The position numbers and the translations under genes were made by a program. This document shows positions 10,827-31,966 of a DNA stretch of 64,000 bases, one piece after another. The notes below the pieces were generated by a model, which made no database searches, had not been told where the DNA came from, and saw only the letters and a list, made by a program, of their open reading frames with translations. Positions within the stretch are counted from its first letter, which is position 1; the number at the start of each line of letters is the position of its first letter. Location: NCBI GenBank assembly GCA_012798435.1, contig JAAZNF010000084.1, positions 1 through 64,000 of the forward strand, written 5' to 3'. This stretch comes from Myxococcales bacterium. GTDB taxonomy: Bacteria > Myxococcota > B64-G9.

Positions 10827-11549
10827 ATGACGCTCGGCAAGATGGTGTTTTCGGCTGGGATGGCCCTGTTCCTTTCGCCACTCCTTTCGTATGGTCAGGA
10901 CGAGCCGGCGCCGCAGCCCGCCTCGGGCGAGGTGACCCCGGCCCCTGCGGGCCAGGCCGCTCCCGCCGCGGCCGCCTCGGGGGACGCCACCTACGAGCTC
11001 AAGCTGCGCGGCCTGGAAGAAAGGGTCAACGAGCTCAAGGAGAAGATCTTCCGCACCAAGGCCCGCATCCTGCAACTCCAGGAGACGGTGGTGCGCGAGT
11101 CCATCGGGGTGGGCGCGCGGGTGGTGCTGGTGCACCGCAACGAGATGGGCGGCTCGTTCAAGCTGCTTTCGGTGCAGTACGCCCTGGATACCCAGCCGGT
11201 GTTCAAGAAGGTGGATGTGGATGGGGATCTCGACGGAATGCCGGAGAAGGAGATCTTCTCGGGCAACATCGTCCCCGGCAACCACAACATCGCGGTGCAG
11301 ATGGTGTACCAGGGGCAGGGCTACGGCTTCTTCTCGTACGTGAAGGGCTACAAGTTCAAGATCAACTCCAGCTACACCTTCACCGCCGAGGAGGGCAAGG
11401 TCATCACCATTAAGATCGTGGGCTTCGAGAAGGGTGGCATCACCACCAAGCTCGAGGAACGCCCCGCGGTGCGCTACGACATCCAGGTCGAGAAGCTCAC
11501 CCCGGAGAAGGCCAAGACTCTTCAGGAGAAGGCCGGGGAAAAGGTGTGA
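10827..11549 (+). CDS. Exported coiled-coil/beta-domain protein of a myxobacterial envelope family
   Basis: A 240-residue protein with a signal peptide (ending near LLSYGQ), an Ala/Pro-rich spacer, a short coiled coil (about 58-95: LEERVNELKEKIFRTKARIL) and a beta-rich domain (about 105-220). I recall similar proteins next to TolQ/TPR genes in Myxococcota, sometimes misannotated as dihydrolipoamide acetyltransferase; it has no lipoyl motif. The ATG at 10827 follows GGGGAGG; the open frame's earlier start at 10773 would bury the signal peptide. It ends in a GTGA overlap with the next TPR gene, so the products are probably made together as periplasmic parts of the same machine. Confidence 0.7.
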   Translation: MTLGKMVFSAGMALFLSPLLSYGQDEPAPQPASGEVTPAPAGQAAPAAAASGDATYELKLRGLEERVNELKEKIFRTKARILQLQETVVRESIGVGARVVLVHRNEMGGSFKLLSVQYALDTQPVFKKVDVDGDLDGMPEKEIFSGNIVPGNHNIAVQMVYQGQGYGFFSYVKGYKFKINSSYTFTAEEGKVITIKIVGFEKGGITTKLEERPAVRYDIQVEKLTPEKAKTLQEKAGEKV

Positions 11550-17306: not shown

Positions 17307-19001
17307 ATGAAGCAGGCGGTGAAAAACTTGGCGCGGCATTTGTGGCACCTCGGCCTCTCTCTGGCGGTCGCCGTCTGCCTGGCGGTGGGGTGCAAGTCCG
17401 CTCCGGAACCGAAACCGGTGGAGCCACAGCCCGAGACCTCGCCAACTGCGGCCGAGGAGGTCAAGCCGCTGGGAGAAGAGGACCGGGAGAAGGTCGCCGC
17501 CGCGACACCGCCGCCGGCCGTGGGCGGCGGGGCGGAGAGCCCCACCGAGACACCGGCCGCCGCGCCGCCTTCCGAGCTCATCTCGGAGGACGCCGCGCGC
17601 CTGCTCTCCGAGGCGGCCGCCCGGGTCGATAGCGATCCGGCCGGGGCGCGGGAGCGCATCAACCAAGCGCTGTCGCAGAACAGCCGCTGCTTCCAGTGCG
17701 CCTACAACCTGGGCGTGCTCGAGGAGCGCCAGCGGAGGTTCGCCGAGGCCCGCGCCGCCTACCAGAAGGCCCTGGCCATCCACCCCACCCACCTCCCTTC
17801 GGTAGTGAACCTCTCCAACCTATTGCTGCGCCAGAAGCTCTACGCGGAGGCGCAAAACGTGGTTTCAGCCGCGGCCCGCGCCGCGCCCAAGGACACCGGG
17901 CTGCGCAACCAGTTGGCGGTGGTGTTGCTCGCCCAGCGCAAGGTCTCGGAGGCTGCCGAGCAGGTCAAGGGCGTGCTCATGGTGGACGAGAAGAACGTCA
18001 CCGCCATGATCCTGCTGGCCCAGGCCTACTTCGCGCAGGGCAAGTTCGAGCTCTCCGAACGCATCTTGCAGAAGGCCCAGGAGATCGATCCCACGAACGC
18101 CGTGGTGGCCAACCGGCTGGGGTTCGTCCATCTCGAGAGCGACAACCAGGTGTCCGCCATCGCCGCCTTCCGCAAGGCGGTGGAGCTGGACCCGAACCTG
18201 ATCGAGGCGCACAACAATCTGGGAGTGCTGTTTTTACGCGCCCACGACTACGCCGCGGCGGCGGAGGAGTTCCGCAAGGCCATCGCTCTGGCGCCGGATT
18301 TCGTGGAAGCCTACCTCAACCTGGGCAACGCCCTGCGCGGCGACCGTCAGTACGCGGAGGCCGAGCAGTCCTACCGAACGGTGCTCACGCTCGACAAGCG
18401 CGAGATCCGGGCCCACCTCAACCTGGGCCTCTTGTACCTCGACGACGAGGTGCCGGGCTACGAGAAGTCCCGTCGTTTCCAGATGGCGGTGGAGGAGCTG
18501 GAGAGTTTCCGGGCCGCTGGCGGCAGCCATCCGAAACTCGCCGCATATTTGGAAGAGGCCGGCAAGAAACGGGAGCGTGCGCTCAAGGACGAGCAGCGCA
18601 AGAAGCAGCAAGAAGAAGAAAAGAAACGCAAGGCCGAGGAAGAGGCGCGCAAGAAAGCCGAGGAAGAGGCCCGGATGAAAGCCGAGGCCGAGGCCAAGGC
18701 CAAGGCCGAGGAAGAGGCCCGCGTGAAAGCCGAGGCCGAGGCCAAGGCCAAGGCGGAGGAGGAAGCCCGCAAGAAGGCCGAGGCGGAGGCCAAGGCCAAG
18801 GCCAAGGCGGAGGAGGAAGCCCGCAAGAAGGCCGAGGCGGAGGCCAAGGCCAAGGCCAAGGCGGAGGAGGAAGCCCGCAAGAAGGCCGAGGCGGAAGCCA
18901 AGAAGAAACCCGCACCTGCGCCGGGAGGCAAACTCGGCGGCGGCAAGGATGATGACGAACCAGCGGGCGCCGGCAACAAGGTCGGCGGCGAGGAGAAGTG
19001 A
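17307..19001 (+). CDS. TPR lipoprotein with long Lys/Glu/Ala tail, GltE/AglT-like
   Basis: 564 residues. The N-terminal leader ends in LAVGC (Cys29), a plausible lipoprotein cleavage site. A low-complexity Pro/Glu/Ala region (30-95) is followed by about eight TPR units (about 95-400; for example IEAHNNLGVLFLRAHDYAAA and FVEAYLNLGNALRGDRQYAE). Residues about 425-545 are almost only Lys, Glu, Ala and Arg in 18-residue repeats, predicted to form one long rigid helix like the stalk of TolA, which could reach across the periplasm. It starts three bases after the stop of the 1132-residue TPR gene. By order and type it resembles GltE (AglT). The tail is encoded by near-identical 54-base repeats. Confidence 0.72.
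   Translation: MKQAVKNLARHLWHLGLSLAVAVCLAVGCKSAPEPKPVEPQPETSPTAAEEVKPLGEEDREKVAAATPPPAVGGGAESPTETPAAAPPSELISEDAARLLSEAAARVDSDPAGARERINQALSQNSRCFQCAYNLGVLEERQRRFAEARAAYQKALAIHPTHLPSVVNLSNLLLRQKLYAEAQNVVSAAARAAPKDTGLRNQLAVVLLAQRKVSEAAEQVKGVLMVDEKNVTAMILLAQAYFAQGKFELSERILQKAQEIDPTNAVVANRLGFVHLESDNQVSAIAAFRKAVELDPNLIEAHNNLGVLFLRAHDYAAAAEEFRKAIALAPDFVEAYLNLGNALRGDRQYAEAEQSYRTVLTLDKREIRAHLNLGLLYLDDEVPGYEKSRRFQMAVEELESFRAAGGSHPKLAAYLEEAGKKRERALKDEQRKKQQEEEKKRKAEEEARKKAEEEARMKAEAEAKAKAEEEARVKAEAEAKAKAEEEARKKAEAEAKAKAKAEEEARKKAEAEAKAKAKAEEEARKKAEAEAKKKPAPAPGGKLGGGKDDDEPAGAGNKVGGEEK
18753..18902 (+). repeat. In-frame 54-bp tandem repeat coding for a Lys/Glu/Ala helix
   Basis: Copies start at 18753, 18807 and 18861 and begin GCGGAGGAGGAAGCCC; the first two are identical over 54 bases and the third is shortened. 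More diverged copies lie upstream from about 18645. Each unit codes for 18 residues of the Ala/Lys/Glu helix in the TPR lipoprotein. Such identity suggests recent expansion by slippage or recombination, so helix length may vary between strains. Confidence 0.85.
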
Positions 19002-19021
19002 TTCGGCCTGTGCCGGACGGC

Positions 19022-19050
19022 TTGACCGGGCTGGCTTTTTTTCTTATAAG
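19022..19050 (+). promoter_or_regulatory. Possible internal promoter before the TolQR-like genes
   Basis: TTGACC at 19022-19027 and TATAAG at 19045-19050, spacer 17, about 10 bases before the ATG at 19061. The transcript would have almost no leader, so this may serve mainly the motor genes from 19343 on. Confidence 0.4.
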
Positions 19051-19060
19051 AAGGTGCGTT

Positions 19061-19300
19061 ATGAGAATGCCATGGGTCTTGCTGCTTTTGGTGGTTTGGT
19101 GCTTCCCGGGAGGGGTCTCGGCGAAGAAAAAAGAGCTGCGTCAGGTGGTGATCCAGGAGGCTACACGGGTGGAAGGCAAGGTGCACAAACCGGAGGTTTG
19201 GTACCTCTTGCCCCGCTCCAACTTGAACTTTGAAAGCCTGAACGTGCAACGCAAGCTCTCGCCGCGGATCGAGGAAGAGACTAAAAAGGCGCCTTTCTGA
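19061..19300 (+). CDS. Small exported protein of the motor cluster (GltF position)
   Basis: A 79-residue protein with a clear signal peptide (MRMPWVLLLLVVWCFPGGVSA) and a short basic mature part containing LRQVVIQEATRVEGKV and KPEVWYLLPRSNLNF. Related small proteins, as I recall, precede TolQ-like genes in Myxococcota clusters. Its place between a GltE-like lipoprotein gene and the TolQ-like gene is comparable to the gltF region of Myxococcus, but I do not recognise the sequence as GltF with certainty. AAGGTG five bases upstream of the ATG is a moderate ribosome-binding site. The longer open frame from 18998 adds residues without a signal-like pattern, so 19061 is preferred. Confidence 0.65.
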   Translation: MRMPWVLLLLVVWCFPGGVSAKKKELRQVVIQEATRVEGKVHKPEVWYLLPRSNLNFESLNVQRKLSPRIEEETKKAPF

Positions 19301-19342
19301 GCGCTCGAGCTGTTCGTGCGGTACACTACCGGAGGAACGACG

Positions 19343-20092
19343 ATGAAACGGACACCGGTTTCGCTTTGGATCACGCTCGCAGCCATGGGAGTGCCGGGCG
19401 TCGCCCTGGCCGCAGGTGGGGAGGACTCGGGCTTCATGGGGCAGATCGCCGAGTTCTTCCAGGCCGGCGGGCCGTTTTTGTATGTCAACTGCGTGATGCT
19501 GTGCTGGGGCGTGGCCACCATCATCGAGCGCATCATCTTCATCTTCTTCCGATATAACGTGAACGCCGAGGCCTTCATGGCCCAGGTACAGAAGCTGGTG
19601 CTGGCCAACAACATCGAGCGGGCCATCAAGTTGTGTAACGCGGCCCCGGCGGCGGCCTTGCCCAAGGTGGTCAAGGCTGGTCTCACTCGCGCGAATCGAG
19701 GCGAAGTGGAGATTCAGAACGCCGTCGAGGAGGCCACGCTGGAGATCGTTCCCATTCTCCAGAAGCGCACTCCCAACCTGGCCCAGATCGCCAACCTGGC
19801 CACCCTGATCGGACTGCTCGGCACCATCACCGGCCTCATCACCGCCTTCCGCGCGGTGGGCGCGGTGAGCCCCGAGCTCAAGGCCAAGGTGCTGTCACAG
19901 GGCATCTCGGAGGCCATGTACAACACGGCCTTCGGTCTCTCCATCGCCATCCTGTGCATGATCGGTCACCTGTTCCTTACCAACATGACCAAGAAGATCA
20001 TCGACGAGATCGATCAATACTCGGTGAAGTTGGTCAACCTGTTGATCTCGCGCCAAAAAGGCGCGGTGAGCGGGGTCGGCGAGCAGCCCTGA
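19343..20092 (+). CDS. TolQ/ExbB/MotA-family proton channel subunit, AglR-like
   Basis: 249 residues with hydrophobic segments at about 8-24, 45-69, 148-172 and 190-213. The conserved TolQ/ExbB segment NLATLIGLLGTITGLITAF is intact, and the large cytosolic loop (70-145) has the usual position. TolQ-family proteins form the pentameric channel of proton-driven motors. The gene is followed by two TolR-type genes, the same one-plus-two composition as AglR-AglQ-AglS, the gliding motor of Myxococcus. Context (mglBA, GltG-like protein) favours that role over TolQ or ExbB of the Tol-Pal and TonB systems, but without an alignment the paralogue is not certain. ATG at 19343 has GGAGG seven bases upstream. 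Confidence 0.8.
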   Translation: MKRTPVSLWITLAAMGVPGVALAAGGEDSGFMGQIAEFFQAGGPFLYVNCVMLCWGVATIIERIIFIFFRYNVNAEAFMAQVQKLVLANNIERAIKLCNAAPAAALPKVVKAGLTRANRGEVEIQNAVEEATLEIVPILQKRTPNLAQIANLATLIGLLGTITGLITAFRAVGAVSPELKAKVLSQGISEAMYNTAFGLSIAILCMIGHLFLTNMTKKIIDEIDQYSVKLVNLLISRQKGAVSGVGEQP

Positions 20093-20157: not shown

Positions 20158-20748
20158 ATGGCTAGAAAACCTTCGCTACGCTCCAAGTCGGCTCAGAAGG
20201 CGGTGGACCTCAACCTGGTGCCCTACCTGGACATCGTGATCAACATCATCATGTTCATGCTGTTCACCTCGACGGGACTGCTGCAGATCGGCGCCATCAA
20301 CGTGAACGCGCCTCGCTACGCGGAGGACTCCGGCGGCGGCGCCACGCAGGATGATCCGAACCAGGAGAAAGAGAAGCAGCTCAACCTGACGGTGGGCATC
20401 ACCTACCAGGGGATCTTCGTGGCCGGGGTGGGAGGGGTGATCGGCGGAGAGGGCCAGCCCAGCGCCGACGCCTCCCAGGGGCCCACCATCCCGTTGCTGC
20501 AGAACGACAAGGTGTGCCAGGAGGCGCTGTCGCGCAAGGTGCCCCCCCCTCCCAGCTGCTACGATTACCCCCGGCTCACCCGAGAACTTATCAAGGTGAA
20601 GAACGTCTTTCCCAACGAGACCAAGATCATCATCTACGCACAGCCGGACGTGCCGTACGAGGTGCTGGTCAAGGTCATGGACGCGAGCCGAGAGGACGGC
20701 GAGCGCCCGCTGTTCTACGACGTGATCCTGAGCCCGGAGATCGCCTAG
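20158..20748 (+). CDS. TolR/ExbD-family stator subunit 1, AglQ/AglS-like
   Basis: 196 residues with a short cytosolic N-terminus, one transmembrane helix (about 22-40) and a periplasmic domain. Asp25 in the helix start (LVPYLDIVINIIMF) matches the proton-carrying Asp of ExbD/TolR/AglQ. The periplasmic part has an extended insertion with two Cys (KVCQEALS, PSCYDYP) before the final alpha/beta fold ending in YDVILSPEIA. With the next gene it makes a TolR pair downstream of one TolQ-like gene, as in AglRQS. The 65-base gap after the TolQ-like gene contains no obvious signal. Confidence 0.8.
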   Translation: MARKPSLRSKSAQKAVDLNLVPYLDIVINIIMFMLFTSTGLLQIGAINVNAPRYAEDSGGGATQDDPNQEKEKQLNLTVGITYQGIFVAGVGGVIGGEGQPSADASQGPTIPLLQNDKVCQEALSRKVPPPPSCYDYPRLTRELIKVKNVFPNETKIIIYAQPDVPYEVLVKVMDASREDGERPLFYDVILSPEIA

Positions 20749-20770: not shown

Positions 20771-21391
20771 ATGGTCGATGGCAACCTTCCCCCCGGCGCT
20801 CCCCCGCAGGCTCCCGAGCCGCCGCCGATCACCCTCTCGCCGGAGGAGCTGGAGCGCTTCCGGCAGCGCAAGGCTTTCAAGGCAGAGGAGCGAAAGCACC
20901 GGCGGCACGTGGAACCGGTGGAGCTGAACATCGTGGCCATGATGGACATGATGACCATCGTGCTGGTGTACCTGCTCAAGAGCTACGCCTCGGATCCGGT
21001 ACAGATCACCCCCTCGCCCGACACCTTGCTGCCCCAGTCGACCACGCAGCTCTCGCCGCAGGAGGCGGTCCAGGTGGCCATCTCCTCTCGGGTCATCCTG
21101 GTCAACGACAAGAAGGTGGCCGCCGTGAAGGACGGCCGGGTGGCGCCCGAGTTCAAGAAGGACAACAACCCGTCGTCCATGTACATCCTGCCGTTGTACG
21201 AGGCGCTCAAGTCCGAGAACTCCAAGCAAAAGATGTTCGCCGATTACAACAAGAGCCAGCAGTTCAAGGGTCTGCTCACGGTGATCGCCGACCGGCGCAT
21301 TCCCTTCCGGCTGCTGACCGAGGTATTGTACACCGCGGGGCAGGCGGAGTTCGGTTCGTACAAGTTCGCGGTGATCAAGCAGGGTACCTGA
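20771..21391 (+). CDS. TolR/ExbD-family stator subunit 2, AglQ/AglS-like
   Basis: 206 residues. A Pro-rich cytosolic segment of about 45 residues precedes the membrane helix (about 53-70), which holds the conserved Asp (Asp59 in ELNIVAMMDMMTIVLVYLL). The periplasmic domain (about 85-205) has the TolR-like strand/helix pattern (SSRVILVNDKKVAAV, LLTVIADRRIPFRLLTEVL). The longer N-terminus and different periplasmic domain from the previous gene suggest the two stators have distinct roles, as with AglQ and AglS. It begins 22 bases after the first TolR-like gene and 25 before the GltG-like gene. Confidence 0.8.
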   Translation: MVDGNLPPGAPPQAPEPPPITLSPEELERFRQRKAFKAEERKHRRHVEPVELNIVAMMDMMTIVLVYLLKSYASDPVQITPSPDTLLPQSTTQLSPQEAVQVAISSRVILVNDKKVAAVKDGRVAPEFKKDNNPSSMYILPLYEALKSENSKQKMFADYNKSQQFKGLLTVIADRRIPFRLLTEVLYTAGQAEFGSYKFAVIKQGT

Positions 21392-21416: not shown

Positions 21417-22793
21417 ATGGTGAAGTCAGACAAGAGTCCGATCCTGCGCATCGGCGTCATCCAGGGTGGCAAGATCATCGAGGAGAAACTCATCCGCGAG
21501 CGGACCACCGTGACCGTCGGCAGTGGCACCCGTAACACCATCGTGCTCCCCAGCGCCTCCGCCCCCAAGAGCATCGCCCTGTTCGAGCTTCAGTCCGGCG
21601 AGTACCATCTGTCCTTCACCGACTCCATGGAGGGCCGGGTTTCGGTGGGCGAGCAGGCAGCCGACCTCCAGTCGCTCAAGGCGCAAAACCTGGTACGGCG
21701 CACCAGCTCAGGCTATAGCTTCAAGCTGAACGAGAGCTCCCGTGGGCGGGTGTCGGTGGGGGAGTGCATCATCCTGTTCCAGTTCGTGACCCCCCAGCCG
21801 GAACCGATACGGCCGCAGCTCCCCTCGGTGGCCCGCGGGTACTGGCTGCACAACATGGACTGGCCGTACTCCTCGACCTTCGGCTCCTGCCTGCTGGCCA
21901 TGATCGTGGTGGTGGTGTGGGCCAACAACACTCCGTTGCCCAAGGAGATGGGCATCGAGGACATCCCGGACCGTTTCGCCAAGCTGGTCATGCCCGACAA
22001 GCCGTCGGACAACAAACCGGACGAAGGCGCCGGCCCGGCCGAAGACGAAAAACCCCAGCCCAAGAAGGACGACAAGAAGAAAGTCGAGACTCAGCCGGAG
22101 GAAGGTCCCGCGGGCGACAGCGAGGAGGCGCGCGCCGCCCGGGCCGCCATCCACCGCGAGAAAGTCGAAAAGAAGGTCGCCGGGCGCGGCCTGCTCAAGT
22201 TGCTGGGGGCCAAGGGCCCCGGGGGCATGGCCAGCGGAGCGGTGGCCGACGTGTTCAACGAGGGCTCCATCGGCGGCAGCGGTGAGGGCACCTTCGAGGG
22301 CATCGGTGGTCTGGACGTGGCCACGGCCGCCGGCCAGCGTGGCACCCGTGGCGGCGACGGCGCCGGTAGCGCGGCCTCCATCGAGGACCTGGGCACCCGC
22401 GGCGTGGAGAAGGGCGTCGGCGACGGCAGCGGCAAGCGCAAGGTCGAGGCCCAGGTGGTGGCCAAGGTCACCGCCACCAGCCTGCAGGAGTTCGACTCCG
22501 ATTCACGCAACCAGAAGGACATCATGGACACCCTGCGGCGGCGCATGGGCGGGGTGAAGGCCTGCTACGAAAAGCGACTCAAGCGAAACCCGGAGCTCAA
22601 GGGCAAGGTGGTGGTGCGCTTCGTGATCGCCGCGGGCGGCTCGGTGATCGAGGCCGAGGTGGTGGAGAACACCACCGGCGACTCCGATCTGGCCGCCTGC
22701 ATCGCCCAGAGCGTGCGCGTGATCCGTTTCCCGCCGGCGGAAGGGTCCGAGACCACCGTGACCTACCCCATCATTTTGGTGCCCGGTTCGTGA
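21417..22793 (+). CDS. GltG-like protein: cytosolic FHA-like domain, one membrane helix, AgmX/PglI C-terminal domain
   Basis: 458 residues. Residues about 8-125 form a beta-rich cytosolic domain of FHA type (LIRERTTVTVGSGTRNTIVL is the characteristic start). A membrane helix follows at about 153-171. Then comes a charged/Pro-rich linker with many Lys, Glu and Asp (175-255), a Gly-rich stretch (265-345) and a C-terminal TonB-like AgmX/PglI domain (about 362-458) with CYEKRLKRNPELKGKVVVRF and the paired Cys of that domain. In Myxococcus GltG has this architecture and is thought to span the periplasm, coupling the AglRQS motor to outer-membrane partners. The gene follows the TolQ/TolR/TolR genes immediately. 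Confidence 0.8.
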   Translation: MVKSDKSPILRIGVIQGGKIIEEKLIRERTTVTVGSGTRNTIVLPSASAPKSIALFELQSGEYHLSFTDSMEGRVSVGEQAADLQSLKAQNLVRRTSSGYSFKLNESSRGRVSVGECIILFQFVTPQPEPIRPQLPSVARGYWLHNMDWPYSSTFGSCLLAMIVVVVWANNTPLPKEMGIEDIPDRFAKLVMPDKPSDNKPDEGAGPAEDEKPQPKKDDKKKVETQPEEGPAGDSEEARAARAAIHREKVEKKVAGRGLLKLLGAKGPGGMASGAVADVFNEGSIGGSGEGTFEGIGGLDVATAAGQRGTRGGDGAGSAASIEDLGTRGVEKGVGDGSGKRKVEAQVVAKVTATSLQEFDSDSRNQKDIMDTLRRRMGGVKACYEKRLKRNPELKGKVVVRFVIAAGGSVIEAEVVENTTGDSDLAACIAQSVRVIRFPPAEGSETTVTYPIILVPGS

Positions 22794-22842: not shown

Positions 22843-23850
22843 ATGAGAGCCATGTGGTTGCGGGACGTGCAGGCGATCCTGGCTCGCAGCGAGGTCGTCC
22901 AGTGGTGGGATGCCATGTCCAAGGGGCTTTCGCGCCTTGAGGCCATGAAGGCCCGCTGTGAGGAGCTGGAGCAGCAGGTGCGCTTGACGGAATTTCGCGC
23001 CGAGCAGACACAGAAGAACGCCGCCGACGCGTTGTACCAGGCCGGCGAGTACGAGGACACCGCCGCGCGCATCGAACGCGAGGCGGCGGAGATCGAGAAT
23101 CGCTCCTACGAGGCGGTGGCGCAGTTCGAGGCTCAACGCATCATGGCCTCCGACCTGTTCTCGCGTATGGGCGCCTGCGAGCACTCGCTGCTCACGCTGC
23201 AGTCCGAGGTGAAGACCCTCGAGGTGTCGCTGGCCGGCGCGAACGATGCGGCCCGAAGGGAGGAGCTCACCCGTGCGTTGCGGCGCAAGCAGGCCGAGGT
23301 GCAGCGGGCCGAGCACGAGCGGCGCGAGTCGGCCGCCAGCTACGAACGCGAGAACAGCCGCAAGCTGCGCCTGTGGGAGGAAGTGGAGCAGATGTGGTCC
23401 CGCTCGTTGGACCTGTCGCTGGCCGTGGCGGAGAAGCGGTTGCGCAGCCGGCGCTCGCGCCAACGTGCCGAGCAACTCTTTCGCGAGGCCGAGGAGCACA
23501 AGGCCCGCGTCGAGGCCCTGCGCCGCGAGCTGGAGGAGAACGCCAAACGGCGCGAGGAGATCGCCCACGCCCTGGAGGAGCTGCGCCGGCAAGCCCGCCA
23601 GCTCATGGGGTGTCTGGTCGGCGAGGAATTCTTGTACTGGCCGCGCCGAGACGACAACCAGCGTGCCTTCTGCGTGCCCATCTCCGATCATGCCGCCGGG
23701 TACAACATCGAGCTGCGTGCCCGCACCATCTACCAGGTCGGACGGCAGCGGGGTGTCCAATTCATCGAGCCGCTGGTCCAGGGGACCGGCCTGGCCGAAG
23801 AAGCGGACCAGCGACTGGACGACTTCTTTACGCTCGGCAGAAAACGCTAG
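22843..23850 (+). CDS. Cytosolic coiled-coil protein of unknown function
   Basis: 335 residues with no signal peptide or membrane helix. Residues about 25-250 are dominated by heptad-rich coiled coil (CEELEQQVRLTEFRAEQTQK, ELEENAKRREEIAHALEELR). The C-terminal 80 residues form a small mixed domain containing GEEFLYWPRRDDNQRAFCVP and YNIELRARTIYQVGRQRG. I do not recognise a family. It lies 49 bases after the GltG-like gene on the same strand, so it may be part of the same transcript. A cytosolic scaffold linked to the motor is possible but speculative. Confidence 0.7.
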   Translation: MRAMWLRDVQAILARSEVVQWWDAMSKGLSRLEAMKARCEELEQQVRLTEFRAEQTQKNAADALYQAGEYEDTAARIEREAAEIENRSYEAVAQFEAQRIMASDLFSRMGACEHSLLTLQSEVKTLEVSLAGANDAARREELTRALRRKQAEVQRAEHERRESAASYERENSRKLRLWEEVEQMWSRSLDLSLAVAEKRLRSRRSRQRAEQLFREAEEHKARVEALRRELEENAKRREEIAHALEELRRQARQLMGCLVGEEFLYWPRRDDNQRAFCVPISDHAAGYNIELRARTIYQVGRQRGVQFIEPLVQGTGLAEEADQRLDDFFTLGRKR

Positions 23851-23930
23851 GGTGCCACTGGTTCGCGCGGCTTGCTTCCAGGTGGAGCCTCTGCTACCGT
23901 GAATCGCGCGTTTTATACGAGGTGGGTGGT

Positions 23931-24377
23931 ATGAACAAGGCCGAAGTCCTGCAGAAGTCCAGGTTGTTCGAAGGGTTGCTCCCCGAAGAGATCGAGATGC
24001 TGGCCGAGCTCACCCAGCAGAAGAGCTTTCCGGCCGGTGGCGTGGTCTTCGAGCAGGGAGAAGTGGGGGATAGCCTGTACCTGATCGTCAGCGGGTCGGT
24101 GGAGGTGGTTCGCAAACGCGCCGATGGCTCCGCCCACGTCATCGCCACCTTGAAGGCTCCGGATTTCTTCGGCGAGATGTCGCTCATCGACAAGGAGTAC
24201 CGCTCGGCGACCATCCGTGCCGTCGAGGACACGGTGATGCTGTGCCTCACCACCGAGAATCTGCACAGCTTCCACCGGGTATATCGCAACGGTTTCACCC
24301 TGCTGGTGATCAACATCGCCCGCGTGCTGAGCGGCCGGCTGCGGGAGACAAACGAGAAGCTGGCGAACAAGATGTAG
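23931..24377 (+). CDS. Stand-alone cyclic-nucleotide-binding domain protein
   Basis: 148 residues that are almost entirely one CRP-type beta-barrel domain: the start FEGLLPEEIEMLAELTQQKS, the turn FEQGEVGDSLYLIVSGSVEV and the phosphate-binding cassette FFGEMSLIDKEYRSATIRAV. The Arg that contacts the cyclic phosphate sits in YRSATIRA. No DNA-binding helix-turn-helix follows; only a short C-terminal helix (ISIARVLSGRL-like). It must therefore act through a partner. The start ATG at 23931 follows a G-rich region (GAGGTGGGTGG); longer upstream frames overlap the coiled-coil gene. Position between motor genes and the giant exported protein suggests a regulatory role, not demonstrated. Confidence 0.8.
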   Translation: MNKAEVLQKSRLFEGLLPEEIEMLAELTQQKSFPAGGVVFEQGEVGDSLYLIVSGSVEVVRKRADGSAHVIATLKAPDFFGEMSLIDKEYRSATIRAVEDTVMLCLTTENLHSFHRVYRNGFTLLVINIARVLSGRLRETNEKLANKM

Positions 24378-24444
24378 CCTCAAGCCGCGTCCGGTCGATC
24401 CGATGAGAATCGTGGCCCTTGGCCCTGGGGGTACGGGGGTTCGA

Positions 24445-27400
24445 ATGATGACGAGAGCGTTCGGCAGCCTGCTGGTCCTGGCTCTCTCGCTCGGCGCCGG
24501 AACGGCGCGCGGAGCGACGGGGCTGCGCAACTTCCCCGTTCGGCTGGAGAGCGCCGCGGAGATCGCTCCGCCCTTGCTGGTGGATTTCGACGGCGACGGT
24601 CGGCCCGAGATCGTGGCCGCGGCCAGCTACCGCATCACGGCGCTGCGCCCGGACGGTACGCCGCTTCCCGGCTTCCCGCTGGAGCTGGCCCGGGGCGCCG
24701 GCGTGGCGACGCCGCTATGCGCCGGGTCTTTCGGGACCCAGAGCCGCGAAGTGATTTTCTTCGGCAGCGAAGACGGCGCCCTGTGGGCCGTGGACGGTTC
24801 CGGCAAGCCGCTGCCGCAGTTCCCGCTGAAGCTCCCCCGGCCGCTCTGCGCGGCGCCGACGCTCGGTGACGTGGACGGCGATGGCCAGGCCGAACTCGTG
24901 TTTGGCACGCAAGACGGACAGCTACATGCGCGCACCTTTCAAGGGACGGAGGCCGCCGGCTTCCCGGCGCGCCTCTCGTCACCGCTGGTCACGCCGGTCA
25001 CCGTCGGCCGCTTCGCGGTCAACGAGGGGGTGGTGCTGCTGTTCGGTGACGAGGCCGGCCGGCTCCACGCCTGGCACAAGCCCAACCAGGAGGCGCCAGG
25101 GTTCCCCACCGAGGCGCGTTTTCTTCTTTCCTCGCAGCCGGTACTGGGTGATCTCGACGACGACGGTCGCTTCGACATCGTGTTCGGGTCGCGCGACTAC
25201 AAGGTGTACGCGCTGCGAGCCGACGGCAGCGAGCTTGCGGGGTTTCCTTTCACCACCGGCTACCGGGTGTATGGGACGGTGGCGCTGGGGGACCTGGACG
25301 GGGATGGCGTGAGCGACGTGCTGGCGGCCTCCGGGGACGGAAAGCTCTACGCGCTCAAGGGGAGTGGCCAACCGGTCAGAGGGTTTCCGGTCGCCGTTGG
25401 ACAGCGTGTCCGTAGCGGCGTGGTCCTGGGCGACCTGGACGCGGACGGAAAACTGGAGATCGCTCTCGGAAGCGATCGCCAGGGATTGGTGGTGTTGCGC
25501 GCCGACGGATCGGCCTACCCGGGTTTTCCGTTGCCGCTACCCGAGGGGTCCTGGGTGACGCCCCTCATCGGCGACATCAACGGCGATGGCCTGGTGGAGG
25601 TCGTGGCCGTCTCCCGCAGCGGGAGCGTTTTCGCGGTCAAGCTGCTCAAGAAGGGAAAGCTCGCCTCCGAACCGGTCTGGCCGATGGATGGTCGGGACGC
25701 CCGGCGCAGCGCCGTGACCCGGCCCAACCCGCCCCGCTACAGCGCGTTGCGCATCACCCCCGAGTCGCCGAGCACCACCGATGTGTTACGGCTCGAGTAC
25801 CGCTTTCACGATCTCGACGGCGACCCGGAGCCGGCCACCGTCATCCGGTGGTGGAAGAACGGCAAGCACCTGCCCGAGTTGGACGGGGCGCGGGAGGTCC
25901 CTGCCGCGGCCACCCGCAAACACGAGCGCTTCAAGTTCACCCTCCAGGCGCAGGACGGCGCGCGTGCCTTCGAGAGCCCCGAGGTGGAGATCCGCAACAC
26001 GCCACCGGGCCCGCCACGGGTGCGGATCCTGCCCGAGGTGGCGCGGCGCGCGGACGATCTCAACATGAAGATCGAGCAAGAATCCGCCGATCCGGATGGC
26101 GATCGCATCCGCTACAGCATCACCTGGCTGCGCGATCGCGCTCCGCTCAAGGGGTTCGACAAGTCCACGGTGCCATCGGCGCAACTTCGCAAGGGGCAAC
26201 GTTTCACGGTGGTCGTGACTCCGCACGACGGCGAGGCCGCCGGCCCGCCGGGTCGGGACAGCCGGATCGTCTCCAACACCCCGCCCGGCGCGCCTCGCGT
26301 GCGCCTGGAGCCCGCCCGCTCCACCGTGACCCAGTCGATCTCGGTGGTCTTCGAGCAGCAAGCCGTGGACCCCGACGGGGACCCGGTCCGGTACCGGTTC
26401 GCCTGGGAGGCGGCCGGCGAGCGCCTCATGGTTCCTGAGGGCGCATCGGTGTTGCCGGCGGGTTTCGTCCGCAAGCGCCAGAGCGTTCGGGTCACGGTCA
26501 CCGCCAGCGACGGCGAGGAGGATGGAGGAGCCACCGACGCCAGCGCCGAGGTGCAGAACACGCCGCCCACCGCTCCCCTGATCCGTGTCCATCCGGTGGC
26601 ACCGCGCCGGGGGGACGATCTGCGGGTGCTGATCGAGAAGCCTTCGTTGGACGTGGATGGCGATGCGGTGGGCTATGCTTATCGCTGGCAGAAGAAGGGT
26701 GGCGCGGTACAGGCGAGTAGCGGGGCCATCCTGCCTGGAGCAGAGATCCGCAAGGGAGAAACCTGGATGGTGCAGGTTTCGCCCCAGGACGGCGAGCGCC
26801 AGGGGGCCCCGGCGACGGCCGAGGTCGTGATCGGAAACACCCCGCCGCAGCCGCCACGGGCGAAGCCCCAGAACCCGCGGCCCGGCACCGGCGAGGACCT
26901 GGTGGTCCAGCTCATCGAGCCAGCGCGCGATGCCGACGGCGACGCGCTCACCCTCGACGTCATCTGGCTGGAGGACGGTCGCGAGATCCAGCGAGGTCGA
27001 GACCTGCTGCGCCTGCCCGCGGCCCGCACGAGAAAGCACGGCCGCTACCTGGCGCGCCTCGTCTCGTCCGACGGATCCGCGGCAGCGCCGGCGGTCGAGG
27101 TGGGTTTCGAGGTTCAGAACACCCCTCCCGGCGCGTGCGAGGTGAAGATCGAACCGCCCGCTCCGGTCCATGGCAGCCCGCTCCTCGCTCGCCTGACGGG
27201 GCCGGTAGCCGACGCGGACGGCGACAGGGTTTCGATGCGATACCGCTGGTACCGCGACGGCGTGGCCATCGAGCCCGGTGCCCAGGCGGAGGCCGTGGCC
27301 GGCGGCGTGGTGAAGAGAGGCCAGGTCTGGACGGTGATCGGCGTACCCCATGACGGCGAGGCCGCAGGCCCGTCCTGCGAGACTTCCGTCACTGTGCAGA

Positions 27401-28263
27401 ACAGCCCGCCTCGACTCGGGCCTGTCTCTATTCAGCCGCCACGCCCGACGGTGGCGGACGCGTTGTCTTTCAAGCTGGAGGCGCAACCGACGGACCCGGA
27501 TGGCGATCCGGTGTCGCTGGACGTCCGCTGGTCGGTCGACGGGCAGCCGCTCCCGGCAGGAGACGGGGTGCGGATCCCGGCCGGGCTGTTGCGAAAACAC
27601 CAGCGAGTCAAGGTTCGAGTGGAGGCTTTTGATGGAGCACTGCCCAGCGGGCCGGTGGAGGCGGAGGTCGAACTGGCCAACTCGCCGCCCGCCGCGCCCC
27701 GGCCGACCATCGAGCCCTCTACTCCGCGGTCGCAAGACGATCTGCGATGCAGCCTGGCAGCGCCTACCCTGGACGCCGATGGCGACCAACTGCGGCACGA
27801 GTTCCGCTGGACACTCGAACGGCAGGGGGGAGCCGGTGCCCGGACAGTTGCTGGCCCGCTGCTCAAAGAGAGCGAGACAAACCGCGCCGAGCGATGGGTG
27901 TGCACGGCCCGCGCCCTGGATGGCGAGGCGGCCGGGCCCGACGGCTCGACCGTGGCGGAGATCGGCAACTCCGCCCCCTCGGCGCCGCAGGCCGAGATCC
28001 AACCGGCCTCCCCGTCGAAGGCCGATACCCTGCGGTGCGTGGTGACGGAGCCAGGCCGGGACCCGGATGGAGACCCGGTGAGCTACCGCTTCCGCTGGAC
28101 CAAGGACGGGGTGGTGCAGCCGTTCGCGTCCGAGACCGACACCGTGCCGGCGCGCTTGCTCAAGGAGAAGGACATCTGGCAGTGTTCGGTGGTGGCCAGC
28201 GATGGCAAGCTGGAGTCGCAACCGGCAGAGAGCCTCGACGTCGTGGTAGGACCAGGGTTGTGA
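24445..28263 (+). CDS. Very large exported protein: FG-GAP/VCBS beta-propeller plus nine Ig-like repeats
   Basis: 1272 residues. The likely start (24445) gives a clean signal peptide (MMTRAFGSLLVLALSLGAG); a longer form from 24403 is possible. Residues about 25-420 contain seven FG-GAP-type repeats with calcium-binding DxDxDG loops (DFDGDGRPEIV, DVDGDGQAELVFG, DLDDDGRFDIVFG, DLDGDGVSDVLAA, DLDADGKLEIALG, DINGDGLVEVVAV), expected to form a propeller. The rest consists of nine tandem beta-sandwich units of about 93 residues, each with a D-x-DGD loop, a Y/W strand and an N-[TS]-[PA]-P junction. No C-terminal anchor or sorting tag is visible. It could be an adhesin or a substrate-contact protein for the neighbouring motility genes. 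Confidence 0.8.
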   Translation: MMTRAFGSLLVLALSLGAGTARGATGLRNFPVRLESAAEIAPPLLVDFDGDGRPEIVAAASYRITALRPDGTPLPGFPLELARGAGVATPLCAGSFGTQSREVIFFGSEDGALWAVDGSGKPLPQFPLKLPRPLCAAPTLGDVDGDGQAELVFGTQDGQLHARTFQGTEAAGFPARLSSPLVTPVTVGRFAVNEGVVLLFGDEAGRLHAWHKPNQEAPGFPTEARFLLSSQPVLGDLDDDGRFDIVFGSRDYKVYALRADGSELAGFPFTTGYRVYGTVALGDLDGDGVSDVLAASGDGKLYALKGSGQPVRGFPVAVGQRVRSGVVLGDLDADGKLEIALGSDRQGLVVLRADGSAYPGFPLPLPEGSWVTPLIGDINGDGLVEVVAVSRSGSVFAVKLLKKGKLASEPVWPMDGRDARRSAVTRPNPPRYSALRITPESPSTTDVLRLEYRFHDLDGDPEPATVIRWWKNGKHLPELDGAREVPAAATRKHERFKFTLQAQDGARAFESPEVEIRNTPPGPPRVRILPEVARRADDLNMKIEQESADPDGDRIRYSITWLRDRAPLKGFDKSTVPSAQLRKGQRFTVVVTPHDGEAAGPPGRDSRIVSNTPPGAPRVRLEPARSTVTQSISVVFEQQAVDPDGDPVRYRFAWEAAGERLMVPEGASVLPAGFVRKRQSVRVTVTASDGEEDGGATDASAEVQNTPPTAPLIRVHPVAPRRGDDLRVLIEKPSLDVDGDAVGYAYRWQKKGGAVQASSGAILPGAEIRKGETWMVQVSPQDGERQGAPATAEVVIGNTPPQPPRAKPQNPRPGTGEDLVVQLIEPARDADGDALTLDVIWLEDGREIQRGRDLLRLPAARTRKHGRYLARLVSSDGSAAAPAVEVGFEVQNTPPGACEVKIEPPAPVHGSPLLARLTGPVADADGDRVSMRYRWYRDGVAIEPGAQAEAVAGGVVKRGQVWTVIGVPHDGEAAGPSCETSVTVQNSPPRLGPVSIQPPRPTVADALSFKLEAQPTDPDGDPVSLDVRWSVDGQPLPAGDGVRIPAGLLRKHQRVKVRVEAFDGALPSGPVEAEVELANSPPAAPRPTIEPSTPRSQDDLRCSLAAPTLDADGDQLRHEFRWTLERQGGAGARTVAGPLLKESETNRAERWVCTARALDGEAAGPDGSTVAEIGNSAPSAPQAEIQPASPSKADTLRCVVTEPGRDPDGDPVSYRFRWTKDGVVQPFASETDTVPARLLKEKDIWQCSVVASDGKLESQPAESLDVVVGPGL

Positions 28264-28294: not shown

Positions 28295-28322
28295 TTGACA
28301 TCTCCAAGTGCTGTCTTATAAT
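28295..28322 (+). promoter_or_regulatory. Consensus sigma-70 promoter
   Basis: TTGACA at 28295-28300 and TATAAT at 28317-28322, both perfect, with a 16-base spacer. It lies 66 bases before the ATG at 28388 and probably drives the genes from 28388 to at least the export lipoprotein. Confidence 0.75.
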
Positions 28323-28387
28323 CCAACCTGCGTCGTCTGGTTTTCATCAATGTTCTTGGACGGTTGTAAGGAGCAGGAGGTGTGTGG

Positions 28388-28951
28388 ATGAACAAGGCGA
28401 CGGCGTTGCTTCTTGCCTTTGCGCTGGCGGCTCCGGCATGGGGCCAGCCTCAGTCCGAAGGGCAAGAAGGAGGAGGCATCGCCTCCGAGTTTGAACGCGC
28501 GGCGGCGCTGCCGGACGCGGAGAAGATCGAACGCTCGGCCCAGTACCTCGCCGAGATGAAACAGATCCTGGGCACGGTGCTGAAACTCCTCAAGGAAGCT
28601 CGTGACGAGAAGGACGTCATCAAGGTCAACTGCGTCAATGAGAAGCTCACCAGCATCAAGGGACTGATGAGAATTTCAGAGCAGGCGGACATGGCCCTCC
28701 AGGAAGCCGTGGCCAAAGGCGAGAGCGACACCAGCGCCCACGAGTTCCACAAGCTGGTCATCTCGCACCAGAAGATCAAAATCCTCAAAACCGAAGCCGA
28801 GCAGTGCGTCGGCGAGCTGGCGTTCGCGGTGGGCAAGACCAACGTGGAGATCGAGGTGGATCGGGATGTGGTCCCGCAAGAGGATCCGACCATGATCCCG
28901 CTGCCGGATACTCCGGTGGTGAGACCGCCCGCTGCCAGCCCGTACCAGTGA
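28388..28951 (+). CDS. Small exported helical protein of unknown function
   Basis: 187 residues: a signal peptide (MNKATALLLAFALAAPAWGQ), then an almost fully helical body (about 30-150) with charged heptads (YLAEMKQILGTVLKLLKEAR, HQKIKILKTEAEQCVGELAF) and a short Pro-rich end (VVRPPAASPYQ). Two Cys (in VNCVNE and EQCVGE) could form a disulfide. ATG at 28388 is chosen since AGGAGG lies seven bases before it; the GTG at 28382 is less good. I do not recognise a named family. The perfect consensus promoter just upstream suggests strong constitutive expression, and the genes that follow code for an outer-membrane barrel and a polysaccharide export lipoprotein, so an envelope role is likely. Confidence 0.7.
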   Translation: MNKATALLLAFALAAPAWGQPQSEGQEGGGIASEFERAAALPDAEKIERSAQYLAEMKQILGTVLKLLKEARDEKDVIKVNCVNEKLTSIKGLMRISEQADMALQEAVAKGESDTSAHEFHKLVISHQKIKILKTEAEQCVGELAFAVGKTNVEIEVDRDVVPQEDPTMIPLPDTPVVRPPAASPYQ

Positions 28952-29053: not shown

Positions 29054-30286
29054 ATGAGAGCAACTTGGAAGACGACGTGGATGGTCCTGTGCGCGATCGC
29101 GGTTCTGGCCGCCGGCCAGCAGGGCTTCGCCAGGGGAAAGGGTATCAAGGCCGGGGAGGGCCGGCTGCACCTGCTTTTCAGCCTCGACTTGGTCTATGAC
29201 ACCAACCCGGGGTATTTCCCCGAGGACGCCACCGGGGATCTGGTGCTCAAGATCCGTCCCGGGTTCGCGCTCAACTTCCCCTCCGAGTCGGTTTCTTTCG
29301 ATATGAACGCCAAGGTCGGGTACGATCGCTACCTGGGCGTGCAGAAGGCCGCGATGCGGGATCTCTCCGCCGTGGCCGGCGAGGCCGATCTCAAACTGGG
29401 GATCAACCCCAACGGGACGGTGAGCTTCTTCCTCGAGGACGTCTTCTCGCGCACCGGTGACCCGCGCTACACCTCCTTCGCCGGCAAATTCAACCGCACC
29501 GACAACGAGGCCAAGGTCCACTTCCAGCTCAAACCCGGCGGCGGGGCCATGATGTTCGACCTGGCCTACGGTTTCTTCCTCGACTGGTTCGACGACAGCG
29601 GGGTGAACGCCACCGCCCTCTCGAGCTACGCCCACCGGGCGTACTTTTCGGGGAAGTGGAAGTTTTTACCCAAGACCGCCGTGGCCATCGATTTCGACGC
29701 CGACCTGCGCCGGTACCCCAACGCCTACCAGGACGGCAGCCAGAACATGGACGTCAATGCCATCCGCGCCACGGTGGGGCTCCTCGGTCAGATCACACCG
29801 ACCCTCTCGCTGGTGGTAAAGGCCGGCTACGGGGACTCGTTGCTACCGTCGCGCACCGGCTACACCGGGTCCGGTTACCGCTCGGCCATCGGCCAGGCGG
29901 AACTCAGCTACACCGCCGGGACCACCTTCCTGCAGTTCGGCTACAGCCGCAATTTCCAGCCGGTGGTGTTGTTCGTGTACTTCGGCCAGGACCGGATCTA
30001 CGGCCGCTTCCGGCAACAGATCGCGGGGAAGTTCGCCCTCTCGGCTGACGTCGGGTTCGACTTCCTCTCCTACGGCACCTCCATCCAGACCGCCAGCCCG
30101 TCCGATCGGACGGACTACTTCTTGACCGCGCGCGTGGCGGCCGACTATTACGCACTGGAGTGGCTGAATTTCGGCCTGGGCTACAGCTTCCAGGGCGTGT
30201 TCACCGACTACACCCAGCCGCTGAACGGCAGCGCCGCCGGCTACCAGAAGCACATGATCGATCTCCACGTCGGGATAGACTACTGA
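29054..30286 (+). CDS. Outer-membrane beta-barrel protein (candidate Wzp-type exopolysaccharide porin)
   Basis: 410 residues with a signal peptide (about 1-27) and then regular amphipathic strands to the end: LHLLFSLDLVYDTNPGYF, VSFDMNAKVGYDRYLG, TSLSYTAGTT-like segments, FLTARVAADYYALEWLNFGL. The chain ends in VGIDY, an aromatic end typical of proteins inserted by the Bam complex. About 16-18 strands can be traced by eye. Its neighbour 40 bases downstream codes for a short polysaccharide export lipoprotein that lacks a pore helix. In Myxococcus, such short Wza-type proteins have been proposed to work with separate 18-strand Wzp porins, so this protein could be the matching porin. That pairing is inference. 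Confidence 0.75.
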   Translation: MRATWKTTWMVLCAIAVLAAGQQGFARGKGIKAGEGRLHLLFSLDLVYDTNPGYFPEDATGDLVLKIRPGFALNFPSESVSFDMNAKVGYDRYLGVQKAAMRDLSAVAGEADLKLGINPNGTVSFFLEDVFSRTGDPRYTSFAGKFNRTDNEAKVHFQLKPGGGAMMFDLAYGFFLDWFDDSGVNATALSSYAHRAYFSGKWKFLPKTAVAIDFDADLRRYPNAYQDGSQNMDVNAIRATVGLLGQITPTLSLVVKAGYGDSLLPSRTGYTGSGYRSAIGQAELSYTAGTTFLQFGYSRNFQPVVLFVYFGQDRIYGRFRQQIAGKFALSADVGFDFLSYGTSIQTASPSDRTDYFLTARVAADYYALEWLNFGLGYSFQGVFTDYTQPLNGSAAGYQKHMIDLHVGIDY

Positions 30287-30325
30287 GCGCACCCCGAGTA
30301 GGATGATGCGGTGAGGTGCGGGATC

Positions 30326-30919
30326 ATGAAACGGCTCTTGGTTTGGTTCGCGCTCTCGTCGATGCTGGGGGCATGCTCGTGGAAGAAGATCCCCGAGACG
30401 CCCGTGGTTTCCGAGGGCGTGGCGGTGGCGGCCTCGACCCTGGGGCCAGGCGATGTGGTGGAGATCAAGGTGTACGACGAGGCCGAGCTCAGCGGCATCT
30501 TCGCGGTGGGCTCGGGCGGGACCGTCAACTACCCACTCATCGGAAGACTGGCGGTGGAGGGCATGACCAGCTCGGACCTGGCCGAGACGCTGCAGAAGAA
30601 GCTGGGCGAGAAGTTCCTGCGCAACCCCCAGGTGAGCATCATCATCCGCGAGTACAACTCCAAGAAGGTCTCGGTGTTCGGCGAGGTCAACAAGCCCGGC
30701 ACCTTCCGCTACGAGGACAACATGACCATCATCCAGGCGGTGAGCATGGCCGGCGGCTTCACCAAGATGGCGAGCAAGAACCAGACCAACGTCACCCGCC
30801 TGGAGAACGGCGAGGAGAGGAAATTCTTCGTCCCGGTGGAGGCCATCGCAGAGGGCAAGACGCGCAACTTCTTCCTCCGCCCGGGCGACATCGTGTACGT
30901 CCCCGAGAGCATCTGGTAG
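30326..30919 (+). CDS. Wza-type polysaccharide export lipoprotein (short OPX form)
   Basis: 197 residues. A lipoprotein signal ends in LGAC (Cys17). The polysaccharide export domain (PES, about 42-118) starts LGPGDVVEIKVYDEAELSG and includes GTVNYPLIGRLAVEG. One SLBB domain (about 120-190) contains KVSVFGEVNKPGTFRYEDNM and the end FFLRPGDIVYVPES. There is no C-terminal membrane helix of the kind that forms the Wza pore, so it would need a partner porin, plausibly the barrel gene just upstream. ATG at 30326 is preferred over the GTG at 30311 because the signal peptide begins there. No glycosyltransferase, flippase or chain-length kinase is adjacent. Confidence 0.88.
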   Translation: MKRLLVWFALSSMLGACSWKKIPETPVVSEGVAVAASTLGPGDVVEIKVYDEAELSGIFAVGSGGTVNYPLIGRLAVEGMTSSDLAETLQKKLGEKFLRNPQVSIIIREYNSKKVSVFGEVNKPGTFRYEDNMTIIQAVSMAGGFTKMASKNQTNVTRLENGEERKFFVPVEAIAEGKTRNFFLRPGDIVYVPESIW

Positions 30920-30931
30920 CACACCCCGCCC

Positions 30932-31966
30932 ATGACCCACCTCGACCGGGAGATCGCATCGCAGCCTGCGGTGCTGGAGCGGCTGCTCGCGTCCCAGTCG
31001 CGCGCGGTGGCAGATGTGGCCCGGCGCCTGCGAGCGGCCTCCCCGCGCGGGCTGCTGCTGGTGGCGCGGGGTTCCTCCGACAACGCAGCGCTGTACGCCA
31101 AGTACCTCCTCGGCGTGCGCAACCGCATGGTGGTGGCGCTGGCCGCGCCCTCCATGTTCACCCGCTACCGCCGCCCGCCGGATCTCTCGGGATACGCGGT
31201 GCTGGCCATCTCGCAGTCGGGCGCCTCGGAGGATCTGTGCGCGGTAACGCGTCAGGCCCGCCGCCAGGGCGCCTACAGCGTGGCGCTGGTGAACCAGGCG
31301 GGTCCGCTCGAGCGCGAGTCCGACGACGTGATCCGGCTCTGCGCCGGTCCCGAGCGCAGCGTGGCCGCCACCAAGAGCTACACCGCCGAGCTGGCGGCCC
31401 TGGCTATGCTCAGCCTGGCCCTGGACGGGACCGCCGCCGAGCGGCGGGAGCTTTCGCGGATCCCGCAGATGGCGGCGCGGGTCCTCTCGGCCAGCGCGGG
31501 CCTCGATGCGGCCGCGGCCCGTTACCGCTACGCGCAGCGACTGTCGGTCATCGGTCGGGGGTACAATTACGCCACGGCCTTCGAGATCGCGCTCAAGCTC
31601 AAGGAACTCGCCTACCTCACCGCCGATCCCTACTCCAGCGCCGATTTTCGACATGGCCCCATCGCCATGGTGGAGCGCGACTTCCCGGTGCTGCTGGTCA
31701 TGCCCGCGGGTCGGGTGTTCGCCGATACGTTCGGCCTGGCCCGCGAGCTGCGCCGCCGCGGTGCGGAGCTTGTGGTGATCTCCAACGAGCGGCGGGCGCT
31801 GCGTCTGGCGCGGGTCCCCGTGATTTTACCGGAGCGCGTACCGGAGTGGTTGAGCCCGATCTTGACCGTGCTGCCGGGACAACTCCTGGCACGACACCTG
31901 GCCGCTGCGCGCGGTTGCCCCCTGGACGCGCCCCGTGGACTGTCCAAGGTCACCCGCACCCGCTGA
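30932..31966 (+). CDS. SIS-domain sugar isomerase, GlmS C-terminal-like
   Basis: 344 residues with two sugar isomerase (SIS) domains and no glutaminase domain. The first domain shows LLLVARGSSDNAALYAKYLL and the phosphate-binding ISQSGASEDLCAV; the second has LSVIGRGYNYATAFEIALKL and DFRHGPIAMVERD. SVAATKSYTAE matches the conserved motif of GlmS-type isomerase domains. It is therefore of the AgaS/FrlB/GlmS-C type and should act on an amino-sugar phosphate. It starts 12 bases after the export lipoprotein gene and is probably co-transcribed; a role in supplying amino sugars for the exported polysaccharide is plausible. The exact substrate cannot be read from the sequence. Confidence 0.85.
   Translation: MTHLDREIASQPAVLERLLASQSRAVADVARRLRAASPRGLLLVARGSSDNAALYAKYLLGVRNRMVVALAAPSMFTRYRRPPDLSGYAVLAISQSGASEDLCAVTRQARRQGAYSVALVNQAGPLERESDDVIRLCAGPERSVAATKSYTAELAALAMLSLALDGTAAERRELSRIPQMAARVLSASAGLDAAAARYRYAQRLSVIGRGYNYATAFEIALKLKELAYLTADPYSSADFRHGPIAMVERDFPVLLVMPAGRVFADTFGLARELRRRGAELVVISNERRALRLARVPVILPERVPEWLSPILTVLPGQLLARHLAAARGCPLDAPRGLSKVTRTR

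Follow-up and report, generated by a model that had tools for sequence, protein, structure and literature searches.

In a 64,000-nucleotide stretch of the genome of a Myxococcales bacterium (called the window here), a gene for an outer-membrane barrel and a gene for a short Wza-type protein (OPX protein), a putative lipoprotein, stand at the end of a block of genes resembling a gliding motor. What do the two proteins form together, where would their polymer come from, and does the neighbouring motor have any part in its export?

The barrel gene lies at 29054-30286 on the plus strand and encodes 410 residues ending in HVGIDY, with a hydrophobic N-terminus, read by eye, as its export signal. A chance open reading frame is ruled out because 140 of the phylum's 190 genomes have a homologue, which is a single gene apart from a few split cases. 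An alignment of 34 of 44 closed ORFs together with the window sequence was used for an AlphaFold2 model (35 sequences; pLDDT 90.2, pTM 0.84). The model has a short N-terminal stretch followed by 18 strands, with outer loops of 3-13 residues and periplasmic turns of 2-6 residues, and no plug domain is seen in it; the last residue is Tyr. The initial annotation had read roughly 16-18 strands and an aromatic end from the sequence and had named structure prediction as a check, and the model agrees on each point, giving a large barrel. When 994 chains were aligned, the closest VIA fold match was the alginate exporter AlgE (Z 20.4, rmsd 4.6, 311 residues), with OprD/Occ porins tied with it near Z 20.1. 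Sequence families are less telling: the single barrel gave only sub-threshold matches in Pfam and NCBIfam (BBP2_2 at E 0.02, EpsL at E 0.009), BBP2_2 was matched at E <=0.01 by 14 of 35 family members, and PDB sequences searched with the alignment profile gave nothing meaningful. Two periplasmic turns, PGGGA and FLPKTA, are almost invariant. A special conservation of the periplasmic strand ends is unsupported (0.564 vs 0.572).

The OPX gene starts at GTG 30311 or, likelier, at ATG 30326 and stops at 30919 on the plus strand; the latter start gives 197 residues, with a lipobox LGAC read by eye (Cys17 counted from that ATG). The domain PF02563 is matched at E 8.4e-21 and SLBB_2 extends to residue 197/202. 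In the PDB the protein comes closest to chain A of 9n9a, which has 186 aa and scores 191.7 bits; Wza stays at or below about 72 bits. We take 9n9a to be Myxococcus WzaB, its residues agreeing with those of the M. xanthus locus L086. As the alignment to 9n9a covers query residues 27-196/197, no sequence is left that could make a pore helix. The protein is therefore a short OPX of the WzaB type, class 3 in the terms of Saidi 2022, made of D1 and D2 (<=280 aa, PES motif, SLBB/D2, without C-terminal membrane helix). A canonical Wza, or class 1 OPX, is rejected, with zero residues beyond the SLBB domain for an amphipathic pore helix; that the Wza-type protein lacks this helix had been noticed from the start.

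Is the pair new? In M. xanthus AM003 (locus L086) a barrel of 421 aa and an OPX of 204 aa are encoded 23 bp apart. By the published description MXAN_1916 ends at residue 421 and 23 bp separates it from wzaB (PMC9603273), and the length of WzaB is given as 204 aa (PMC9601211). On this agreement the window pair is orthologous to M. xanthus WzpB/WzaB, with barrel identity to the Myxococcus homologues of about 30%. In the family holding Myxococcus (f13) nearly every genome gave a single match to the barrel, so the other Myxococcus pairs, EpsY/EpsX and ExoA/ExoB, are not its closest kin. We named 80 loci from a scan of genome contigs, of which 4 were too short and were excluded from the OPX count. 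An OPX gene lies directly 3' of the barrel in 65 of the remaining 76, and none was found behind it in 11 (tblastn, E 1e-6). Composite OPX/barrel export was proposed by two groups in 2022 (PMC9601211, PMC9603273). It is thus already known, and the window pair adds another example; the split pore and the comparison with Myxococcus Wzp porins in the initial annotation are sharpened to WzaB/WzpB orthology.

The 11 loci without a neighbouring OPX bear on a different reading of the barrel, namely that it belongs to the Glt-like machine as an outer-membrane component comparable to GltA, GltB or GltH and is not a polysaccharide porin. The barrel does stand inside a Glt-like locus and co-occurs with one of its proteins, w189, described below. 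However, its orthology to WzpB, its AlgE-like 18-strand fold and the OPX adjacency in most loci all count against this, as do the barrel-OPX-Wzc blocks that occur without Glt genes in some genomes, and we consider it highly improbable.

Very probably, then, the two proteins together make a WzaB/WzpB-type composite translocon in the outer membrane, in which polymer would pass from Wzc through an OPX ring to the barrel. The D1D2-only OPX protein would form a periplasmic ring, presumably octameric, which would receive the polymer from a Wzc-type co-polymerase and hand it to the 18-strand barrel and so to the cell exterior. WzpB-WzaB contacts are unsupported by the coevolution analysis reported in PMC9603273. 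The M. xanthus WzaB/WzpB translocon is described as exporting a secreted biosurfactant polysaccharide, BPS (PMC7310880), and the polymer here might be BPS-like and anionic. The suggestion of the initial annotation that the pair exports a slime or adhesion polymer tied to motility is not borne out, given the BPS export by the M. xanthus translocon and the normal movement of a polar MXAN_1922 mutant.

Where is the partner pathway? The source genome comprises 5.05 Mb in 129 contigs and is 97.3% complete. It encodes a single OPX, a single Wzz-family protein, which is a 731-aa Wzc-type kinase on contig C70, and two Wzy_C proteins, on contigs C28 and C8. A partner polymer pathway is thus present in the genome, outside five genes of the barrel-OPX pair. 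A pathway gene within five genes was the search filter of Schwabe 2022, and MXAN_1915 fails it likewise by its published description. A full Wzx/Wzy cluster was not found in this genome, the pathway genes being on separate contigs; a search for the PF01943 flippase (Wzx) gave no match in the genome above the cut-off and a single one below it, MurJ-like by eye. The polymer cluster elsewhere in the genome, which had been named as a check, was accordingly found in part: Wzc and Wzy are there, but scattered and not as one cluster. No glycosyltransferase was found beside the pair, as had been noted before, and the nearest candidate is 19 kb off, a TPR protein at 49583-51526 whose PMT_2 match is marginal, at 26.0 bits for a cut-off of 26.1. 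The sugar gene nearest to the pair is that of a SIS-domain isomerase/deaminase (30932-31966, plus strand; GlmS/NagB-II-like; PF01380 E 4.1e-31, NF046059 E 1.6e-65, below cut-off), which begins 12 bp past the OPX gene and is conserved near OPX in the own family. In one family relative (L045) sugar-nucleotide genes gather downstream of OPX, with a DegT-type aminotransferase between OPX and the SIS isomerase (L045:11981-13063).

Relatives connect the pair with Wzc more directly. Counted by eye among the matches listed, 9 of the 140 barrel genomes, from seven families, have their best Wzc match on the strand of the barrel and no more than about 4.1 kb away from it (G012, G162, G166, G173, G175, G176, G177, G178 and G180). 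In G162 the OPX gene is followed by genes for a Wzy_C protein, Wzc, a glycosyltransferase and a DegT aminotransferase; the Wzc of the source genome is 50% identical to the G162 Wzc beside OPX, and its C28 Wzy matches the G162 Wzy at 29% (2e-64). Across the 80 named loci, Wzc was found in 7 and Wzy in 1. Directly 3' of Wzc in one locus lies a NusG-domain gene for an RfaH-like antiterminator (L004:14695-15261), and L047 and L049 look similar by eye. Among the matches listed, a single OPX is found in each of the nine family members, the source genome among them, and the eight relatives have a Wzc 66-74% identical to that of the source genome, on a contig other than that of the barrel, as in the source genome itself.

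The polymer could come from another pathway type, since the only PF02397 transferase of the genome belongs to an ABC-2 transporter cluster on contig C102, where it is accompanied by the permease and the ATPase of the ABC-2 transporter and by a glycosyltransferase. Could the pair export the product of that cluster and not a Wzc/Wzy polymer? The sole transferase and the lack of a PF01943 match above the cut-off would fit. Yet the partners that relatives carry beside the pair are Wzc genes and not ABC genes, and the Wzc orthologue is kept in all eight family relatives, in both cases among the matches listed. We therefore regard export of the ABC-2 product as improbable and the Wzc-fed translocon as the better reading.

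What, then, is the motor block upstream? It begins with an MglB-like roadblock GAP (9417-9899; PF03259 E 1.3e-15; NCBIfam MglB 81.7 bits, cut-off 200) and an MglA-like small GTPase (9918-10505; PF00025 E 1.5e-7, small_GTP domain) that is 84-85% identical in finished Myxococcus loci; these and the following genes of the block are all on the plus strand. They are followed by GltC-like (11546-13927; NCBIfam GltC E 4.9e-14), GltD-like (13905-17303), GltE-like (17307-19001; NCBIfam GltE E 1.4e-25) and GltF-like (18998-19300) genes, GltD and GltF being named by synteny and size. A proton-motor module comes next, with one AglR/TolQ-like gene (19316-20092; PF01618 E 2.5e-24) and two ExbD/TolR-like genes (20158-20748 and 20771-21391; PF02472 E 2.2e-10 and 4.4e-8), and then a GltG-like gene with a TonB-like C-terminus (21417-22793; NF033760 E 1.9e-45). 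Genes for a coiled-coil protein (22843-23850) and a cNMP-binding protein (23910-24377) hold their positions in several loci. A 1286-aa FG-GAP/Ig-like protein (24403-28263; PF13517 E 5.8e-26) is not confined to the own family, being present in some others too, and is absent from Myxococcus loci. The last gene before the barrel encodes w189, an exported protein of 189 aa (28382-28951). With its AglRQS-like motor and its GltC, D, E, G core the window locus is an Agl/Glt-type envelope machine. It is not the gliding machine proper: the NCBIfam equivalog scores are far below their cut-offs (GltG 155.6 bits against 650, GltC 52 against 450, GltE 90.1 against 225), which makes the window Glt genes those of a paralogue. 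Just upstream of mglBA, on the minus strand, lies a gene for a caspase-domain protein (7275-8957; PF00656 E 4.2e-12), whose C-terminal part weakly matches the barrel domain PF13505, below cut-off.

Is this arrangement an accident of one genome? We inspected the gene order in 20 stretches, where gene calling missed genes in L042 and L048 (the latter of low GC) and the OPX of L046, and in the 80 named loci. The order mglB-mglA-GltC-D-E-F-(AglRQS)-GltG-w189-barrel-OPX recurs across Myxococcota. For named loci with enough sequence, w189 is 5' of the barrel in 64 of 69 and GltG is upstream in 43 of 53. In the set of 190 genomes, w189 and barrel occur together in 132, the barrel alone in 8 and w189 alone in 10; they adjoin in 113 of the 132 and are on different contigs in 19, where draft breaks are indistinguishable from true separation. 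In 95 of 126 genomes the best GltG match is upstream of the barrel by no more than 15 kb and on its strand, while in 30 it is on another contig and in 1 elsewhere; these counts take one best match per genome for the 136 genomes listed, 126 of them with a barrel, and here too draft contig breaks mimic separation. The placement after a motor locus that the initial annotation pointed out is thus real and phylum-wide, even though the motility-linked polymer it hinted at is not borne out. In L067, L128, L135 and L137, barrel and w189 are neighbours and OPX or GltG was not found nearby. L091, titled Comamonas sp. KCTC 72670, carries a myxobacterial locus and is probably mislabelled or contaminated.

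Six finished genomes of group g51 show the row mglB-mglA-w258-GltC-GltD-GltE-GltF-GltG-w189-barrel-OPX, with a cNMP gene detected between GltG and w189 in four of them. We took g51 as Myxococcus because G134 (g51) and M. xanthus AM003 (G190) share the GltG match C186:1116-2444; for M. xanthus itself the whole row is deduced, as in AM003 a contig break falls between w189 and barrel. The twelve genes of the Myxococcus row fit the twelve tags MXAN_1926 to MXAN_1915, among which MglB is given as MXAN_1926 and MglA as MXAN_1925 (PMC3441718) and the gltD homologue of the G4 cluster as MXAN_1922 (PMC3169522). To judge from gene order, the Myxococcus locus is the one at MXAN_1926-1915, i.e. the "G4" Glt paralogue, and the window locus would best be called G4-type. 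A GltG tree (32 rows, IQ-TREE) joins 23 further locus-linked GltG with the one from the window (support 99/95), and five other GltG-like proteins of the source genome and three of AM003 fall outside this group; the deep order of the tree is unsure, with several long branches. The grouping implies that the genome has other Glt-like clusters, on contigs C92 and C59. These two clusters (L153 and L155) have a GltG of about 640 aa, the published length of the gliding GltG. In the account of Luciano 2011 the function of G4 is stated as unknown, and a motility phenotype is reported absent in a polar MXAN_1922 mutant (PMC3169522). MXAN_1915 is placed outside any polysaccharide cluster in PMC7484181, and is described as orphan-like, 1.016 Mb away, in PMC7310880. 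The titles, abstract openings and passages that we consulted do not state the linkage of mgl, G4, wzpB and wzaB, which may be known already. What seems new is the pair at the end of a gliding-type motor block across much of the phylum.

The protein between motor and barrel, w189, is shared by 132 of the 140 genomes that have the barrel. A signal peptide was read by eye, the two cysteines C82 and C140 are invariant, and the tail mostly ends in RPPxASP. From an alignment of 44 (43 of 64 sequences plus the window) a three-helix bundle is predicted (pLDDT 85.7). Pfam and NCBIfam gave zero family matches above cut-off, and a fold search with the model gave generic helical bundles, none at E <=0.001. 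Its gene is preceded by a promoter-like site at 28295-28322 (plus strand), TTGACA-16-TATAAT, which matches 12 of 12 sigma-70 consensus positions and stands ahead of w189-barrel-OPX. Only one other site in the window has at least 11 of 12, TTGACA-18-TATAGT at 9277-9306 (plus strand) upstream of MglB (11/12, consensus match only). Two near-perfect sigma-70-like sites thus bracket the locus, and the 12/12 one is unusual at about 67% GC. In 300 shuffles of the 250 bases 5' of w189 the top score was 10, reached in 6 of them; the survey covered 59 of 64 w189 loci, and 37 of these 59 have an exact TTGACA in their best site. This site suggests that w189-barrel-OPX may be its own transcription unit. 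If so, operon arguments for a coupling to the Glt genes are weakened, and wzpB/wzaB may have stayed active in the polar MXAN_1922 mutant of the literature.

Does the motor then act on the translocon? By analogy with Agl-Nfs, we give a roughly even chance that the G4-type machine, with w189, positions or pulls the translocon or the polymer. Such a coupling is supported by the conserved gene order and by the Agl-Nfs/Exo precedent as described in PMC3858216; G4 would stand to a BPS-type exporter as Nfs stands to spore-coat export. The opposite reading, whose chances we put slightly below even, is that an ordinary translocon merely sits beside a Glt-like machine, the linkage reflecting shared regulation or history. 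The promoter-like site ahead of w189 speaks for mere neighbourhood, as do several relatives with the barrel by Wzc and w189 and GltG on other contigs, and so does the normal motility reported for the polar MXAN_1922 mutation though wzpB/wzaB lie downstream (PMC3169522). On the other hand, the order has been kept despite great divergence, as the w189 and GltG counts and the six finished Myxococcus genomes show, and Agl-Nfs acting on Exo is, in the same description (PMC3858216), a precedent for coupling.

A bolder form of the coupling is unlikely, though not far-fetched: G4, MglBA, the AglRQS-type motor and w189 would be a dedicated polysaccharide-export machine, with the Ras-like GTPase MglA setting its position. 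A proton-driven trans-envelope motor would move, gate or pull the polymer through WzaB/WzpB, and w189 would be the adaptor between Glt proteins and barrel, a role that is conjecture. If this were true, Agl-Nfs-Exo and the gliding Agl-Glt would be derived uses of a machine whose original task was polymer export. More modestly, the motor of the G4-type locus may serve polymer export; work on surface polymers, already demonstrated for the spore coat, may be a general feature of Glt-type motors. In any case gene order across much of the phylum places wzaB, which had been called an orphan lying 1 Mb away from its pathway, in one locus with G4 and mglBA, and gives wzaB and G4 each a testable partner.

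How does the window compare with known systems? AlgE shares the 18-strand barrel, but its sequence relation to the window barrel is undetectable, its pathway is synthase-dependent, and its loops are described as folding into the pore (PMC9601211). EpsY/EpsX and ExoA/ExoB (Schwabe 2022, Saidi 2022) combine a D1D2 OPX with an 18-strand barrel as the window pair does, but they are described as lying inside or near their own biosynthesis clusters. In Agl-Nfs/Exo (Wartel 2013), as in the window, a Glt-paralogous complex is found with an AglRQS motor and an OPX-exported polymer; there the coupling was shown by imaging, while in the window locus it is gene linkage that points to it, and the tree separates the window GltG from the three other AM003 paralogues. 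The nearest system is WzaB/WzpB (MXAN_1915/MXAN_1916), which has in common with the window the order of the pair, the short OPX, the 18-strand barrel, the lack of an adjoining glycosyltransferase and, in finished Myxococcus genomes, the same upstream locus, while the AglRQS-like motor genes, the FG-GAP protein and the SIS isomerase belong to the window locus.
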